A stretch of DNA of 64,000 nt from Dehalococcoidia bacterium (GTDB taxonomy: Bacteria > Chloroflexota > Dehalococcoidia > Tepidiformales > Tepidiformaceae). Position numbers and translations under genes: made by a program. Every line of letters starts with the position of its first letter. Position 1 is the stretch's first letter. This document shows, in pieces, positions 5,701 through 40,980 of this stretch. The notes below the pieces were generated by a model. It did not search any database. It was not told the DNA's origin and saw only the letters and a list, made by a program, of their open reading frames with translations. Where the stretch lies: assembly GCA_020850615.1 (NCBI GenBank), contig JADZEI010000029.1, positions 1 through 64,000 of the forward strand, in the 5' to 3' direction.

Positions 5701-5717
5701 GCAGGGGCGGTCGCCCG

Positions 5718-5745
5718 CCATCGGCCATCGGCTATCGGCTATCGG
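5718..5745. repeat. Heptamer array (CCATCGG x2, CTATCGG x2)
   Basis: Four 7-bp units directly downstream of the hydrolase gene. Read on the minus strand the units are AGCCGAT and GGCCGAT, which fit RRCYRAY. A matching array in the opposite orientation lies at 5856-5883. Confidence 0.75.
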
Positions 5746-5775
5746 CCGCGCGCGGGCAGGGCGCCGCAGGCGTAG

Positions 5776-5796
5776 CCGCGGAGCATTGCTCCGCGG
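5776..5796. terminator. Hairpin between convergent genes
   Basis: A 10-bp perfect stem (CCGCGGAGCA / TGCTCCGCGG) lies midway between the two heptamer arrays and between convergent genes. There is no clear T tract, so termination is a guess. Confidence 0.4.
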
Positions 5797-5855
5797 GATT
5801 GTCCGAACTATTCCCCGCGCCAGCCCAGAGACGCCCCGCGTCCCGCGACCACGCC

Positions 5856-5883
5856 GCCGACAGCCGACGGCCGACGGCCGACA
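5856..5883. repeat. Heptamer array (GCCGACA / GCCGACG)
   Basis: Four 7-bp units (phase AGCCGAC, GGCCGAC; both fit RRCYRAY) ending one base before the stop codon of the minus-strand gene at 5885. Together with 5718-5745 it forms an imperfect inverted pair around 110 bp. Confidence 0.75.
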
Positions 5884-18490: not shown

Positions 18491-18538
18491 TCCCTCGGCC
18501 CCGGCCAGGCGAAGGGCCATCGCCGCGATCCCGGCACC

Positions 18539-18566
18539 AACAGCCAACAGCCAATAGCTAACAGCC
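18539..18566. repeat. Heptamer array (AACAGCC, AATAGCT)
   Basis: Four 7-bp units in phase AGCCAAC / AGCCAAT / AGCTAAC (RRCYRAY), ending two bases before the stop codon of the minus-strand gene at 18569. Confidence 0.7.
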
Positions 18567-35274: not shown

Positions 35275-36432
35275 TTACTTCAGCAGGTTGAGGACCGCCT
35301 GCGGGGACTGGTTCGCCTGGGAAAGGACGCTGACGCCGGCCTGCTGCAGGATCTGGTTGCTCACCATCATGCTCGAGAGCTCGGCCACGTCGGCGTCACG
35401 GATCCGGCTCTCCGCCGCGCTCAGGTTCTCGACCGCGATGCCGAGGCTGGCGATGGTGTGCTCGAGCCGGTTCTGGGCCGCACCGAGGTTGGCGCGGCGG
35501 GTGTTCAGCGTGCTGATGGCAGTGTCGATCTCCGTGATCCGGGCGTTCGATGCTGCAAGGTCCTGGACCGCCGTGTTGGCGACCCACGTCGTCAGGTTCA
35601 GGCCCGTCGCCTGCGTCGCACGCACGTCGCTGAAGCCCACGCTCATCGTGTTGCCGACGTTCGCGCCCACCTGGAACACGGCCGAGCCGTTGCCAGTCAC
35701 GGTGATGCCGGCGCCGAAGCCGCCAATGTCGGTGTTGATGTTCGCGGCCGTCTTGCCGGCGGCGCCCGTCACCAGCGTGATCGTCACGCCGCTCTGCGAG
35801 AAGTTCAGCACCTGGGTACTGTTGGCGGCCATGTCGTTGAGGGTGATCGTCTCGCTGCCGAGCGTGATCGTCGTCGCCGTCGAGGTGATGGACAGGGCGC
35901 CCGCCTGGGCCCGGCTCACGTCCAGCGACGCGACCGTCGCATCGCCGCCCGCACCGCTCAGCACGGTGCCGACTTTTGTGGCCGAGGCCACGTCCAGCGT
36001 GCCCACGAGCGTGCCGTTCAGGAGCTGCGCGCCGTTGAACTGCGTCGCCCCGGCAATCCGGTCGATTTCCGCCTGCAGGGCGACGAGCTCCGTGCCGATC
36101 GAGGTGCGGGCCGCCGCGTCCATCGAGCCGTTGGCCGCCTGGACCGCCAGCTCGCGCGCCCGCTGGAGGATGCTGTGGATCTCGTCCATCGCGCCTTCAG
36201 CGGTCTGGATCATCGAGATGCCGTCCTGGCTGTTGCGCAACGCCTGGGCCGAGCCCCGGATCTGGCTGCGCATCTTCTCCGAGATGCCGAGCCCCGCCGC
36301 GTCGTCCGCCGCGCGGTTGATGCGGTAGCCGCTGGAGAGCTTCTCCAGGACCTTGCCCATCTTCAGGCTCGTGGTGTTCAGGTTCCGCTGCGCGTTGATC
36401 GCGGCAACGTTGGTGGCGATGTACATACCCAT
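35275..36432 (-). CDS. fliC: Flagellin, paralogue 1
   Basis: A 385-residue flagellin. The N-terminal D0/D1 region (IATNVAAINAQRNLNTTSLKMG, LSSGYRINRAADDAAGLGISEKMRSQIRG) and C-terminal region (NLGAAQNRLEHTIASLGI, ESRIRDADVAELSSMMVSNQILQQAG, ending VLNLLK) are standard, and the variable middle is short. The start ATG 36432 has GGAGG 6 nt upstream. It is downstream of the second flagellin gene with its own leader, and the two proteins are close paralogues. Confidence 0.95.
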   Translation of the reverse strand: MGMYIATNVAAINAQRNLNTTSLKMGKVLEKLSSGYRINRAADDAAGLGISEKMRSQIRGSAQALRNSQDGISMIQTAEGAMDEIHSILQRARELAVQAANGSMDAAARTSIGTELVALQAEIDRIAGATQFNGAQLLNGTLVGTLDVASATKVGTVLSGAGGDATVASLDVSRAQAGALSITSTATTITLGSETITLNDMAANSTQVLNFSQSGVTITLVTGAAGKTAANINTDIGGFGAGITVTGNGSAVFQVGANVGNTMSVGFSDVRATQATGLNLTTWVANTAVQDLAASNARITEIDTAISTLNTRRANLGAAQNRLEHTIASLGIAVENLSAAESRIRDADVAELSSMMVSNQILQQAGVSVLSQANQSPQAVLNLLK

Positions 36433-36608
36433 GGTGATCCTCCGGCTTTCCTGCACGAACCCCGGGGCCTCACTCCGGGGCGTCCACCGCTGGTGTTATT
36501 TCGGTGGACAGCAGGTGTTCACGGTAGGTATCGAAACGTCCGCCTCCGCCAACAGGGCCGGGGGCGAAAGATCAGGGAATCCCTTACGTTCCGCGTGAAC
36601 ACGCAGAA

Positions 36609-36635
36609 GGGCCCCCGCGGTTACCGCGGGGGCCC
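36609..36635 (-). terminator. Terminator after flagellin gene 2
   Basis: Perfect 12-bp stem GGGCCCCCGCGG / CCGCGGGGGCCC with a 3-nt loop and TTCTGCGTGTT after it on the minus strand. Confidence 0.75.
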
Positions 36636-36662
36636 TCCTGTGTTGGCTCCGGAGCCGGAGGA

Positions 36663-37814
36663 CTACCGGAGGAGGCTGAGGACCGACTGCGAGGCCTGGT
36701 TCGCCTGTGCGAGCACCGCGGTGCCGGCCTGCTGCAGGATCTGGTTGCTCACCATCTTGCTCGAGAGGTCCGCCACGTCCGCGTCGCGGATCCGGCTCTC
36801 CGAAGCCGTCAGGTTCTCCACGCTCACGCCGAGGCTGCTGATCGTGTGCTCGAGCCGGTTCTGCGCCGCACCGAGGTTCGAGCGGCGGGTGTTCAGCGTC
36901 GTGATCGCGGTGTCGATTTCGGTGATGCGCGCATTCGCCGCCGTCAGGTCCTGCACCGCCGTGTTCGCAACCCAGCTCGTGAGGTTCAGGCCCGTCGCCT
37001 GCGTCGCACGGACGTCGCTGAAGGCCACGCTCATCGTGTTGCCGACGTTCGCGCCGACCTGGAAGACCGCCGAGCCGCTGCCCGTCACCGTGACGCCGGC
37101 GCCGAAGTCGCCGATGTCGGTGTTGATGTTCGCGGCCGACTTCGCGGCGCCGCTAACGAGGGTGATGGTCACGCCCGTCTGGGCGAAGTTGAGGACCTGG
37201 GTGCTGTTCGCAGCCATGTCATTGAGCGCGATCGTCTCGGTGCCCATCGTGATCGTTGTCGCCGTCGAGGTGATGGCGTACGTCCCCGCCTGGGCGCGGC
37301 TCACGTCGAGGGCCGCCACCGTCGCGTCGCCGCCGGCGCCGCTCAGCACTGTGCCGACTTCCGTCGCCGAGGCCGCGTCGAGCGAGCCGACGAGCGTGCC
37401 GTTCAGGAGCTGCGAGCCGTTGAACTGGGTCACGCCCGCGATGCGGTCGATTTCCGCCTGCAGGGCGACCATTTCAGTGCCGATCGAGGTCCGCGCCGAG
37501 GCGTCCATCGAGCCGTTCGCCGCCTGGACCGACAGTTCCCGGGCGCGCTGGAGGATGCTGTGGATTTCGTCCATCGCGCCTTCAGCGGTCTGGATCATCG
37601 AGATGCCGTCCTGGGCGTTGCGCAGGGCCTGCGAGTTGCCGCGGATCTGGCTGCGCATCTTCTCCGAAATGCCGAGGCCGGCGGCGTCGTCGGCGGCGCG
37701 GTTGATGCGGTAGCCGCTGGAGAGCTTCTCCAGGACTTTGCCCATCTTCAGGCTGGTGTTGCTCAGGTTCCGCTGGGCGTTCAGGGCGCCGACGTTGGTA
37801 ACGATCGATGACAT
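36663..37814 (-). CDS. fliC: Flagellin, paralogue 2
   Basis: A 383-residue flagellin starting MSSIVTNVGALNAQRNLSNTSLKMGKVLEKL and ending QSVLSLLR. It is near-identical to the gene at 35275 in both conserved ends and similar in the middle, so the pair arose by tandem duplication. Upstream on the minus strand, CCCGATAA (37903-37896) resembles a sigma-28 -10 box, though the -35 part is poor. Each flagellin has its own terminator, so levels can be set separately. Confidence 0.95.
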   Translation of the reverse strand: MSSIVTNVGALNAQRNLSNTSLKMGKVLEKLSSGYRINRAADDAAGLGISEKMRSQIRGNSQALRNAQDGISMIQTAEGAMDEIHSILQRARELSVQAANGSMDASARTSIGTEMVALQAEIDRIAGVTQFNGSQLLNGTLVGSLDAASATEVGTVLSGAGGDATVAALDVSRAQAGTYAITSTATTITMGTETIALNDMAANSTQVLNFAQTGVTITLVSGAAKSAANINTDIGDFGAGVTVTGSGSAVFQVGANVGNTMSVAFSDVRATQATGLNLTSWVANTAVQDLTAANARITEIDTAITTLNTRRSNLGAAQNRLEHTISSLGVSVENLTASESRIRDADVADLSSKMVSNQILQQAGTAVLAQANQASQSVLSLLR

Positions 37815-38925: not shown

Positions 38926-39813
38926 GTGACTGAGGCAGCGACAAAGACCGGACCCAAGGTGCACGCGGTCGAGGAGTACACGGTCCAGGAAGAACCGTAC
39001 TACCTCCCGATCGGCGACGAAGTCGAACTCTTCGAAACCGCGTACGCGCAGCGCATCCCCGTCCTTCTCAAGGGCCCGACCGGCGCCGGCAAGACCCGGT
39101 TCGTTGAGTACATGGCCTGGCGCCTTGGCCGGCCCCTCACGAAGGTGTCCTCGCAAAGCGGCAACGAAGAGGAATACCGCCAGCCGCTGATCACCGTGGC
39201 CTGCCACGAAGACCTCACCGCGTCCGACCTCGTCGGCCGCTACCTGCTCGATACCGACGGCACGAAGTGGGTCGATGGCCCGCTGACCCGCGCGGTCAAG
39301 GTAGGCGCCATCTGCTACCTCGACGAAGTGGTCGAAGCGCGCAAGGACACCACCGTCCTCATCCATCCGCTCACCGACTACCGGCGCCTGCTCCCCATCG
39401 AGAAGCTCGGCCAGGTCATCGAGGCAACGGACGGCTTCCTCCTGGTCATCAGCTACAACCCGGGCTACCAGAGCGCCCTGAAGGACCTGAAGCACTCGAC
39501 CCGCCAGCGCTTCATCGCGATCGAGTTCGACTACCCGCCCAAGGACCAGGAAGCCGAGATCATTGCGCACGAATCCGGCTGCTCCCTCGCCGCCGCGACC
39601 GACCTCGCCAAGCTCGGCGAAAAAGTCCGCAACCTCAAGGAGCACGGCCTCGGCGAAGGCGTCTCAACCCGCCTCCTTATCTATGCCGGCCGCCTCATCG
39701 CCAACGGCATCCCCGCCCGCCGCGCCTGCCAGGTCGGCATCACCTGGGCCCTCACGGACGACGCCGAAGTCCAGCGCAGCATCGAAGAGGTGGTGACGTC
39801 GATCTTCGAGTGA
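38926..39813 (+). CDS. MoxR-family AAA+ ATPase (CbbQ/NirQ/NorQ type)
   Basis: A 295-residue AAA+ ATPase: Walker [12 protein letters not shown], Walker [12 protein letters not shown], sensor 1 LVISYNPGY and the second-region SRH Arg ([12 protein letters not shown]). The C-terminal domain ([13 protein letters not shown]...[13 protein letters not shown]) matches CbbQ/NorQ. These ATPases work with a VWA protein (CbbO/NorD) to remodel a metal enzyme such as RuBisCO or NO reductase. The VWA protein is here at 41047, but two genes lie in between and no client enzyme is in the window. Confidence 0.9.
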
Positions 39814-39856: not shown

Positions 39857-39880
39857 AGTGCTGAGTGCTGAGTGCTGAGG
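39857..39880. repeat. Left inverted repeat: AGTGCTG x3 plus AGG
   Basis: Three 7-bp units then AGG, 24 bases in all. It is the exact reverse complement of 40298-40321. Confidence 0.9.
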
Positions 39881-40353
39881 TCGTGGACTTCGTCAGGGGC
39901 CGCGCCGAACGGTTTGAGGACCTCGTCGCGTGGCAACGCGCCCGGGCCCTCACGAGGCGTGTCTACGAAGTCACTCGCACGGGGACGTTCCGCGCGGACC
40001 GCGCACTCGGGCAGCAGGCGCAGCGTGCCGCCGTGTCGGTGATGGCTAACATCGCTGAGGGTTTCGAACGGGGTCGTCCGGCCGAGTTCCACCAGTTTCT
40101 GTCCGTCGCGAAGGCGTCCTGTGGCGAGCTCCGTTCCCACCTCTACGTCGCGCTCGACGCGGGGTACCTCGATCGGCCGCTGTGGCAGGTGCTGCACAGC
40201 GAGACGGAAGAGGTTGGGCGCATCATCGGTGGGCTGCGGGCGTCGATCGAACGTCGGCACGGTGGCGGATGGAGTTCCGGCCCCACCGGGCGGTCTGCCT
40301 CAGCACTCAGCACTCAGCACTCCAAACCGCGTTCTGCGCCGGGCTCGGAATAA
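39865..40353 (+). CDS. Four-helix-bundle protein (23S rRNA intervening-sequence/S23 family)
   Basis: A 162-residue helical protein. FEDLVAWQRARALTRRVYEVT, QAQRAAVSVMANIAEGFERG, FHQFLSVAKASCGELRSHLYVALDAGYL are the hallmark helices of the S23/IVP family, of which the Avd accessory protein of diversity-generating retroelements is a relative. The function of stand-alone members is unknown. GTG 39865 lies in the left repeat and GTG 39883 is an alternative start. The C-terminal tail SALSTQHS is translated from the right repeat, so the tail is probably not functional. Confidence 0.82.
   Translation: MLSAEVVDFVRGRAERFEDLVAWQRARALTRRVYEVTRTGTFRADRALGQQAQRAAVSVMANIAEGFERGRPAEFHQFLSVAKASCGELRSHLYVALDAGYLDRPLWQVLHSETEEVGRIIGGLRASIERRHGGGWSSGPTGRSASALSTQHSKPRSAPGSE
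40298..40321. repeat. Right inverted repeat: CCT plus CAGCACT x3
   Basis: Exact reverse complement of 39857-39880. Confidence 0.9.
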
Positions 40354-40365
40354 GGACTCCCACCC

Positions 40366-40980
40366 GTGCGCATCGGCATTGTCTCCGACATCCACTGCAA
40401 CCTCGCCGGCCTCGAACGCGCCCTCGAGCTCATGGCGCCGTTCGATGCGCTGCTGTGCGCGGGCGATTCCGTCTTCCAGTTCCGCTGGTCGAACGATGTC
40501 GTGGCGCGGTTGCGGGAGCTGGGGGCGTATGTGGTCCAGGGGAACCACGAAGAGACGATCCTTAGCCGCGACGGCGAGCGCGCCATCTCCAGCCCGAAGG
40601 TGGACCAGGAGCTCGTCGCCTGGATGCGCGAACAGCCCTTCCGCATGGACCTCGTCTTCGATGGCAAGCGCGTGCTCCTGACGCACGGGTCGCCCTGGGA
40701 GCCGTGGAAGGAGTACCACTACCCCCACGAGACCATCTGGGCGAAGGCCGCCTCGCTCGACACCGATGTCGTCGTCGTCGGGCACACCCACTTCAAGATG
40801 GCCCAGCGCTTCGGCGATGTCCTCGTCATCAACCCCGGTTCCGCGAGCGACCCCCGCGACTCCCGGAACGACTTCCAGCTGTCGTGCGCGGTGTGGGACA
40901 CGACAAGCGACGAAGTGACGTTCTACGATTACCCGGATCCCACCCGCAATTTCGTCGCATCGTCGGGACAGCTCACCTGA
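40366..40980 (+). CDS. Metallophosphoesterase (MJ0936/YfcE-type)
   Basis: A 204-residue calcineurin-like phosphoesterase: SDIHCN (D-x-H), CAGDSVFQF (GD), VQGNHEET (GNHE), LLTHGSPW (H) and VVGHTHFKM (GHxH) form the full two-metal site. Small members cleave phosphodiesters such as cyclic nucleotides. GTG 40366 starts the D-x-H strand directly, with AAGGAC upstream. It sits between the four-helix gene and the VWA gene and reads in the same direction, so it may belong to the MoxR/VWA unit. Confidence 0.88.
   Translation: MRIGIVSDIHCNLAGLERALELMAPFDALLCAGDSVFQFRWSNDVVARLRELGAYVVQGNHEETILSRDGERAISSPKVDQELVAWMREQPFRMDLVFDGKRVLLTHGSPWEPWKEYHYPHETIWAKAASLDTDVVVVGHTHFKMAQRFGDVLVINPGSASDPRDSRNDFQLSCAVWDTTSDEVTFYDYPDPTRNFVASSGQLT

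Follow-up and report, generated by a model that had tools for sequence, protein, structure and literature searches.

The intervening sequences (IVS) of 23S rRNA and the heptamer repeats of bacterial genomes are among the described systems closest to the locus reported here. The IVS of Coxiella burnetii carries strain-variable GACAGAT heptamers before S23p and is excised by RNase III (PMC4990558). Heptamer repeats have been reported in Beggiatoaceae, cyanobacteria, Xanthomonas, and Nostoc, including TAACTGA (PMC4679880) and, in PMC4692102, the Xanthomonas unit GGGAATC, with 70 to 75 convergent pairs, and the Nostoc unit GGGGATT, and MacGregor suggested a repeat-binding protein as a possible mobile element (PMC4679880). 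None of the open-access literature that we searched, which comprised no subscription papers or preprints, joins S23, heptamer arms, and mobility. An initial annotation of our locus, made from sequence alone, did not know the unit to have been described, and this largely held: heptamers (in one rRNA IVS) and heptamer repeats have been reported, but separately (PMC4990558, PMC4692102, PMC4679880).

The window unit and its site in related genomes

The window, i.e., the whole 64,000-nucleotide stretch of DNA that was analyzed, contains a 465-bp unit made of an S23/IVP gene and inverted arms of tandem heptamers. The features of the unit and its neighbors are as follows:

38926 to 39813, plus strand: upstream neighbor, MoxR-like (CbbQ/NorQ) ATPase gene (PF08406, PF07728), same sense as S23
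39857 to 39880, plus strand: left arm, AGTGCTG x3 followed by AGG, exact 24-nt inverted repeat
39865 to 40353, plus strand: S23/IVP four-helix gene, domain at 39916 to 40230 (PF05635, TIGR02436)
40298 to 40321, plus strand: right arm, CCT followed by three CAGCACT units, the inverted counterpart of the left arm
40366 to 40980, plus strand: downstream neighbor, metallophosphoesterase gene (PF12850), which adjoins MoxR at empty sites (junctions in 30 genomes)

The initial annotation had described exact 24-bp inverted ends, each made of three AGTGCTG/CAGCACT units, and these were confirmed at positions 39857 to 39880 and 40298 to 40321. The 24 nt form the longest exact inverted repeat between positions 39500 and 40700, compared to 10 to 14 nt in 15 dinucleotide shuffles. 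The proposal that the gene starts within the left end held only in part, since the GTG at 39865 is merely the earliest start codon available to the ORF and the GTG at 39883, two bases past the left arm, is likelier and better fits the gene length of relatives. The gene does read out through the right end, as claimed, with its stop at 40351 to 40353. According to domain matches, the unit also lies between the MoxR gene and the phosphoesterase/VWA genes, as had been stated, a VWA gene being found among its neighbors as well. Elsewhere in the window, the minus strand carries a tandem pair of flagellin-like genes (35275 to 37814) whose translations appear mutually similar by eye.

The encoded protein matched the PF05635 profile (E = 1.4e-30) and TIGR02436, and S23 codons show a purifying pattern. 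Structure comparison of the predicted model (pLDDT of 85.5) returned XCC0516 (2gsc) and BT_0352 (2rld) as the nearest PDB folds, followed by Avd (4dwl) from a Bordetella phage retroelement, and the matches included Avd chains from the DGR RNP. XCC0516 forms homopentamers (Lin et al. 2006, cited in PMC4990558). The initial annotation had related S23 to Avd and to rRNA insertions; besides the Avd-like fold, an armed S23 gene was found in the 23S rRNA of Azospirillum. This Azospirillum lipoferum locus is inside the 23S rRNA gene (Rfam RF02541), in sense, with GACAGAG/GACGGAG heptamer arms, at what we take from its sequence context to be the helix-45 region. This rRNA intervening sequence, the only one examined directly, is built like the armed S23 units, and with the heptamers reported for the Coxiella IVS, we read these rRNA insertions as ribosomal members of the same class. 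For the window unit itself, the RNA is predicted to fold end to end.

We then read the junction between the MoxR and phosphoesterase genes in 30 genomes of the family. Nine were filled, with a gap of 435 to 552 bp containing S23 and both arms; 20 were empty, with a gap of -4 to 77 bp and no heptamers; and one was a relic in which only the left arm and the beginning of the S23 coding sequence were left. At empty sites, the gene and both arms were missing jointly: the arms belong to the unit, coming and going with the gene. This outcome favors the cassette interpretation put forward in the initial annotation. The nine S23 genes at this site may have a single origin, given that one clade was not rejected (AU p = 0.56, with a poorly resolved tree), and independent insertions were accordingly set aside as a candidate. 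The window copy is perhaps an old, vertically retained insertion, and its own movement was not seen.

The units at the nine filled sites nonetheless differ (AGTGCTG, AGTTCCG, AGTCCCG, AGTCCCA, and AGTCCCT), and both arms changed together at each of them. Own arm pairs had a mean score of 21.6 versus 11.6 for arms swapped between orthologous sites (permutation p = 1e-4). Some process keeps the two arms alike even as their unit changes. Selection on an RNA stem was considered as the cause and rejected: the arm differences comprised 64 G-U versus 79 A-C, i.e., no G-U excess. This lack of wobble bias makes RNA pairing an improbable cause of the match between arms and favors pairing or binding at the DNA level.

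Armed S23 units across genomes and plasmids

The source genome encodes five PF05635 genes, all five of which are enclosed by inverted tandem arms with five different units, namely, GTTGTCC, AGTGCTG, GGCTGTT, and ATTCACG (7 nt) and the 8-nt AGGCGTAA/G. The arms of one element carry one unit, and elements differ in that unit, which is usually of 7 nt and sometimes of 8 to 10 nt. In the same-family set of 73 loci (28 genomes), the best inverted repeat had 7 as its leading lag at 64 loci. We then applied a common rule to all locus sets, using 220 nt per side and thresholds for score and period. Period-7/14 arms were detected at 59 of 72 loci in the family set, 13 of 15 in the plasmid set, and 47 of 75 in a broad set covering about 25 phylum-level groups, for a pooled 119 of 162 scorable S23 loci versus 5 of 3,000 random positions of the source genome. 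The arrangement thus recurs, with varying units, in the majority of the bacterial phyla tested. When any period was accepted (8 to 10 and 15 added), these values became 138/162 and 57/3,000, periods 8, 9, and 10 being seen more often in groups such as CPR and Bacteroidota. The counts for the 162 loci are not fully independent, since a few loci are duplicated between collections and some sites are orthologous, and the genome background rates were taken from a 458-kb sample of the source genome. This comparison also favors the cassette and, together with the empty sites, supports the initial proposal of a mobile or structural cassette.

The units share a loose pattern, GAGTNNN (information of 3.9 bits versus 3.0 for letter-shuffled units); a broad alignment proved too diverse for pattern scanning. 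Unit identity was 0.72 at 60 to 75% S23 protein identity versus about 0.49 at 20 to 35%, an agreement that simple coinheritance could possibly also yield. No period-7 arms were found at Y1_Tnp or GxxExxY loci, the other small mobile-type genes checked. Separately, GxxExxY (PF13366) genes at L236 to L239, L243, and L245 were observed between inverted arms of 8- to 9-nt units like CACNGAGGN, perhaps representing a second family of tandem-armed elements. Additional peculiarities were seen at individual S23 elements. The outer array of the element in L009 (1001 to 1062) drifts stepwise from GTTGTCC to GTTGCCC to GTGGCCC, which might reflect slippage spreading new variants, and in the elements of L041 and L042 the arms are long, with GC-rich hairpins alternating with short heptamer-like words (TGAGTGGAGCGCCGCGCTGGCGCGCGGC...). 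Many family genomes have another S23 site with common flanks and GGCTGTT-like units, as noted in L011, L015, L022, L025, L029, L044, L047, L048, L051, L053, L056, and L064.

Heptamer arrays without S23 also occur in the window, none with an assigned strand:

5717 to 5882: S23-less inverted heptamer array pair, ATCGGCY / GCCGACR, about 110 bp between, candidate nonautonomous element
18537 to 18565: solo array of CCAACAG, unit identical to that of S23 element L011 of the source genome
38186 to 38211: solo array of CTGATAA, a rotation of TAACTGA (PMC4679880)
44295 to 44324: solo array of CGATTCA, unit identical to that of S23 element L013 of the source genome

An empty-site search in relatives for the pair at 5717 to 5882 found no synteny, the downstream frame having been badly chosen. 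Period 7 dominates the short arrays of the 458-kb sample (27 versus 0 to 6 for the other periods from 4 to 15), and most of these arrays are solo. Among S23-less arrays, 8 of 13 matched one of the genome's own S23 units at 6/7 positions or more, compared to 2.6 expected from random sets drawn from relatives (p = 0.003), and exact matches numbered 6 versus 0.86 expected. This test was limited to the unbiased part of the sample, the other part having been chosen for the ACTCAGC unit. Such agreement is the pattern of a single family that has both full copies and copies without the gene.

The elements lie in sense behind a host gene. The upstream gene was in sense at 50 of 51 broad-set loci with a clear call (50:1) and, over all sets, by 77 to 8 at loci where both neighbors were called; 62% of arms start between -5 and +15 nt from the upstream stop codon. 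Neighbors were called by ORF length, and the window itself was miscalled. Such noisy calls would therefore have diluted the sense bias, not created it. The bias may arise because read-through expression is selected or because insertion follows transcription. Some elements sit inside operons, such as the one in the suf operon of Riemerella and an element with 8-nt arms between cas10 and cmr3 in a type III-B CRISPR operon of a Picosynechococcus plasmid (L139, 1495 to 1851). Heptamer arrays and genes annotated as "four helix bundle protein" within operons are to be read as insertions and not as operon members.

Filled and empty sites at about 90 to 99% identity were available in Nostoc plasmids sharing a common operon. 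An S23 element occupies junction 2 in three plasmids, with four empty, and a different S23 element, with GGGAAAA units, occupies junction 3 in one plasmid only. At junction 1, an S23-less heptamer element is present in five plasmids and absent from two, and in 2 of the 5 filled copies, a second element is nested at the identical spot, its core differing between the two. The junction-2 element was also found in an Aulosira plasmid at 81% identity, where the flanks are unrelated and homology does not extend past the outer end of the arms. S23-less elements share the heptamer unit of S23 elements in these Nostoc plasmids, and the plasmid of a Peltigera cyanobiont has an S23 gene interrupted by an S23-less element of 182 bp, with a duplication of 0 to 1 nt relative to the intact copy. 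Target site duplication was not evident at the other Nostoc sites compared, and element edges are slightly ragged at operon sites 1 and 3. From the filled and empty sites and the S23-less insertions, we therefore conclude that armed units move with and without S23. Insertion without evident target duplication is shown, as are copies with and without S23, and the armed S23 unit is very likely a mobile unit. The "nonautonomous" label of the initial annotation was not borne out either way: S23-less copies exist and S23 copies are perhaps the fuller form, and S23 is no known transposase.

Several S23-less elements (L137, 730 to 999, as well as L144, L147, L149, and L150) have conserved noncoding cores, some of them nested, and the cores of L144 and L147 have TCTGAATCCCCCACT and a CTAAATC/GATTTAG hairpin in common. 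On L137, an Rfam search gave sub-threshold matches only, which we took as chance hits to palindromic AT-rich DNA.

Proposed mechanism and alternative explanations

The explanation that we favor, by a modest margin, is a mobile family in which pentameric S23 acts on the heptamer ends and movement proceeds through a folded single strand. S23 would form a ring, a pentamer as in XCC0516 and akin to the nucleic acid-handling Avd, that binds the repeated units of both arms; such rings would pair the element ends and stabilize the element as a folded single strand, which host replication or repair enzymes might cut and join into nicked or transcribed DNA. Template switching at the hairpin, with one arm copied from the other, would let the unit drift without the arms losing their match. 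Lying in sense, S23 would be expressed by read-through, and S23-less copies would be moved in trans. The parts of this model are not equally secure. Action of S23 on the arms is inferred, without binding data, and we consider it slightly better supported than its absence; no report of S23 binding its arms was found in the open-access literature searched. The single-strand route is also an inference, and one that we lean slightly against. No catalytic motif could be named in S23, and the strand-transfer enzyme is thus unidentified. Two candidates were rejected. Dependence on a reverse transcriptase (RT) is contradicted by the absence of PF00078 from the source genome with its five elements (7/38 family genomes have it), and dependence on a Y1 transposase by its absence from the element and from the S23-bearing genomes G021, G022, G024, G026, and G035.

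The alternative that survives best is an RNA-level element, which is rather unlikely but remains possible. In this scenario, the arms would pair in the transcript, RNase III would cut the hairpin, S23 would hold the RNA, and a cellular RT would copy it into transcribed sites, comparable to Avd and RT in diversity-generating retroelements. In its favor are the strong sense bias and the position right behind stop codons, the sense orientation of rRNA copies, the match of the S23 fold to Avd, including DGR RNP chains, and the excision of the Coxiella IVS by RNase III (PMC4990558). Against it, the PF00078 RT is found in just 7 of 38 family genomes and not in the five-element genome, and the arm differences lack a G-U bias, although a later loss of the RT, or an RT that PF00078 does not cover, is still possible. 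A second, unlikely alternative is a kept host module, i.e., an ancient S23 gene whose arms serve as a regulatory or mRNA-processing operon hairpin, selected for pairing and immobile today. The probably single origin of the copies at the MoxR site and their long persistence there, the purifying pattern in S23 codons, the in-sense operon position, and the end-to-end RNA fold of the window unit are compatible with this view; the many empty MoxR junctions, the recent differences between filled and empty sites in Nostoc plasmids, where S23-less copies and an insertion into a gene also occur, and the lack of wobble bias in the arms argue against it. Finally, it is very unlikely that the arms are ordinary slippage repeats gathering beside small genes without relation to S23: heptamer arrays are indeed the commonest short arrays in the source genome, and mostly solo, but slippage yields direct, not paired inverted, arrays, the S23 association is strong (119/162 versus 5/3,000), and Y1_Tnp and GxxExxY loci lack period-7 arms.

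Returning to the favored mobile family, a bolder reading can be stated, for and against which we see equal grounds when its parts are taken jointly. It would be a transposase-free mobile class with freely changing end units of 7 to 10 nt that are kept matched, aided by S23 rings, with the excess of bacterial heptamer repeats representing largely its ends and remains and the rRNA IVS its ribosomal members. Apart from this bolder reading, the armed S23 units tie together the S23 protein with no known function, the rRNA intervening sequences, and the unexplained excess of heptanucleotide repeats. S23 gains a testable role, binding of its own arms, and many solo heptamer arrays a possible origin. 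The units also point to mobility without a recognized transposase in many bacterial phyla and mark a widespread and little-noticed form of small mobile DNA.

Comparison with known systems

Like insertion sequences and DNA transposons, the window unit has terminal inverted repeats; unlike them, it encodes S23 only and no transposase. Target site duplication is usual, yet not universal, for such elements. The S23-less heptamer elements resemble MITEs in being short, inverted-ended, and present or absent at one site, but they have no evident target duplication or known transposase, and their ends consist of tandem units that differ among elements. REP/RAYT systems (Y1_Tnp, PF01797) likewise combine a small gene between inverted repeats with many gene-less genomic copies; in contrast, S23 is no HUH transposase, and Y1_Tnp loci lack period-7 arms. 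In the same family, we also observed Y1_Tnp genes with REP-like inverted palindromes on their flanks that show no period 7 (L248, L256, and L257), apparently a RAYT/REP system. The Avd protein of diversity-generating retroelements shares the four-helix fold of S23, whereas the source genome has no PF00078 RT, nor, short of a dedicated search, was any candidate for template or variable repeats noticed.

The IVS of 23S rRNA share with the window unit an S23 gene of similar length and terminal inverted repeats capable of forming a stem, with tandem heptamers in Coxiella. Many IVS, although not all, carry an S23/IVP ORF, as the window unit does, the difference being that the latter lies between protein genes and not in rRNA. 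Known heptamer repeats are also 7-nt tandem and intergenic, often as inverted pairs in Xanthomonas, and a TAACTGA array is present within the window. They differ in that PMC4679880 and PMC4692102 tie no S23 gene to the repeats and that those of Xanthomonas and Nostoc are generally linked to no mobile element. The arrays described here, unlike the published heptamer repeats, form the termini of S23 units and S23-less relatives.
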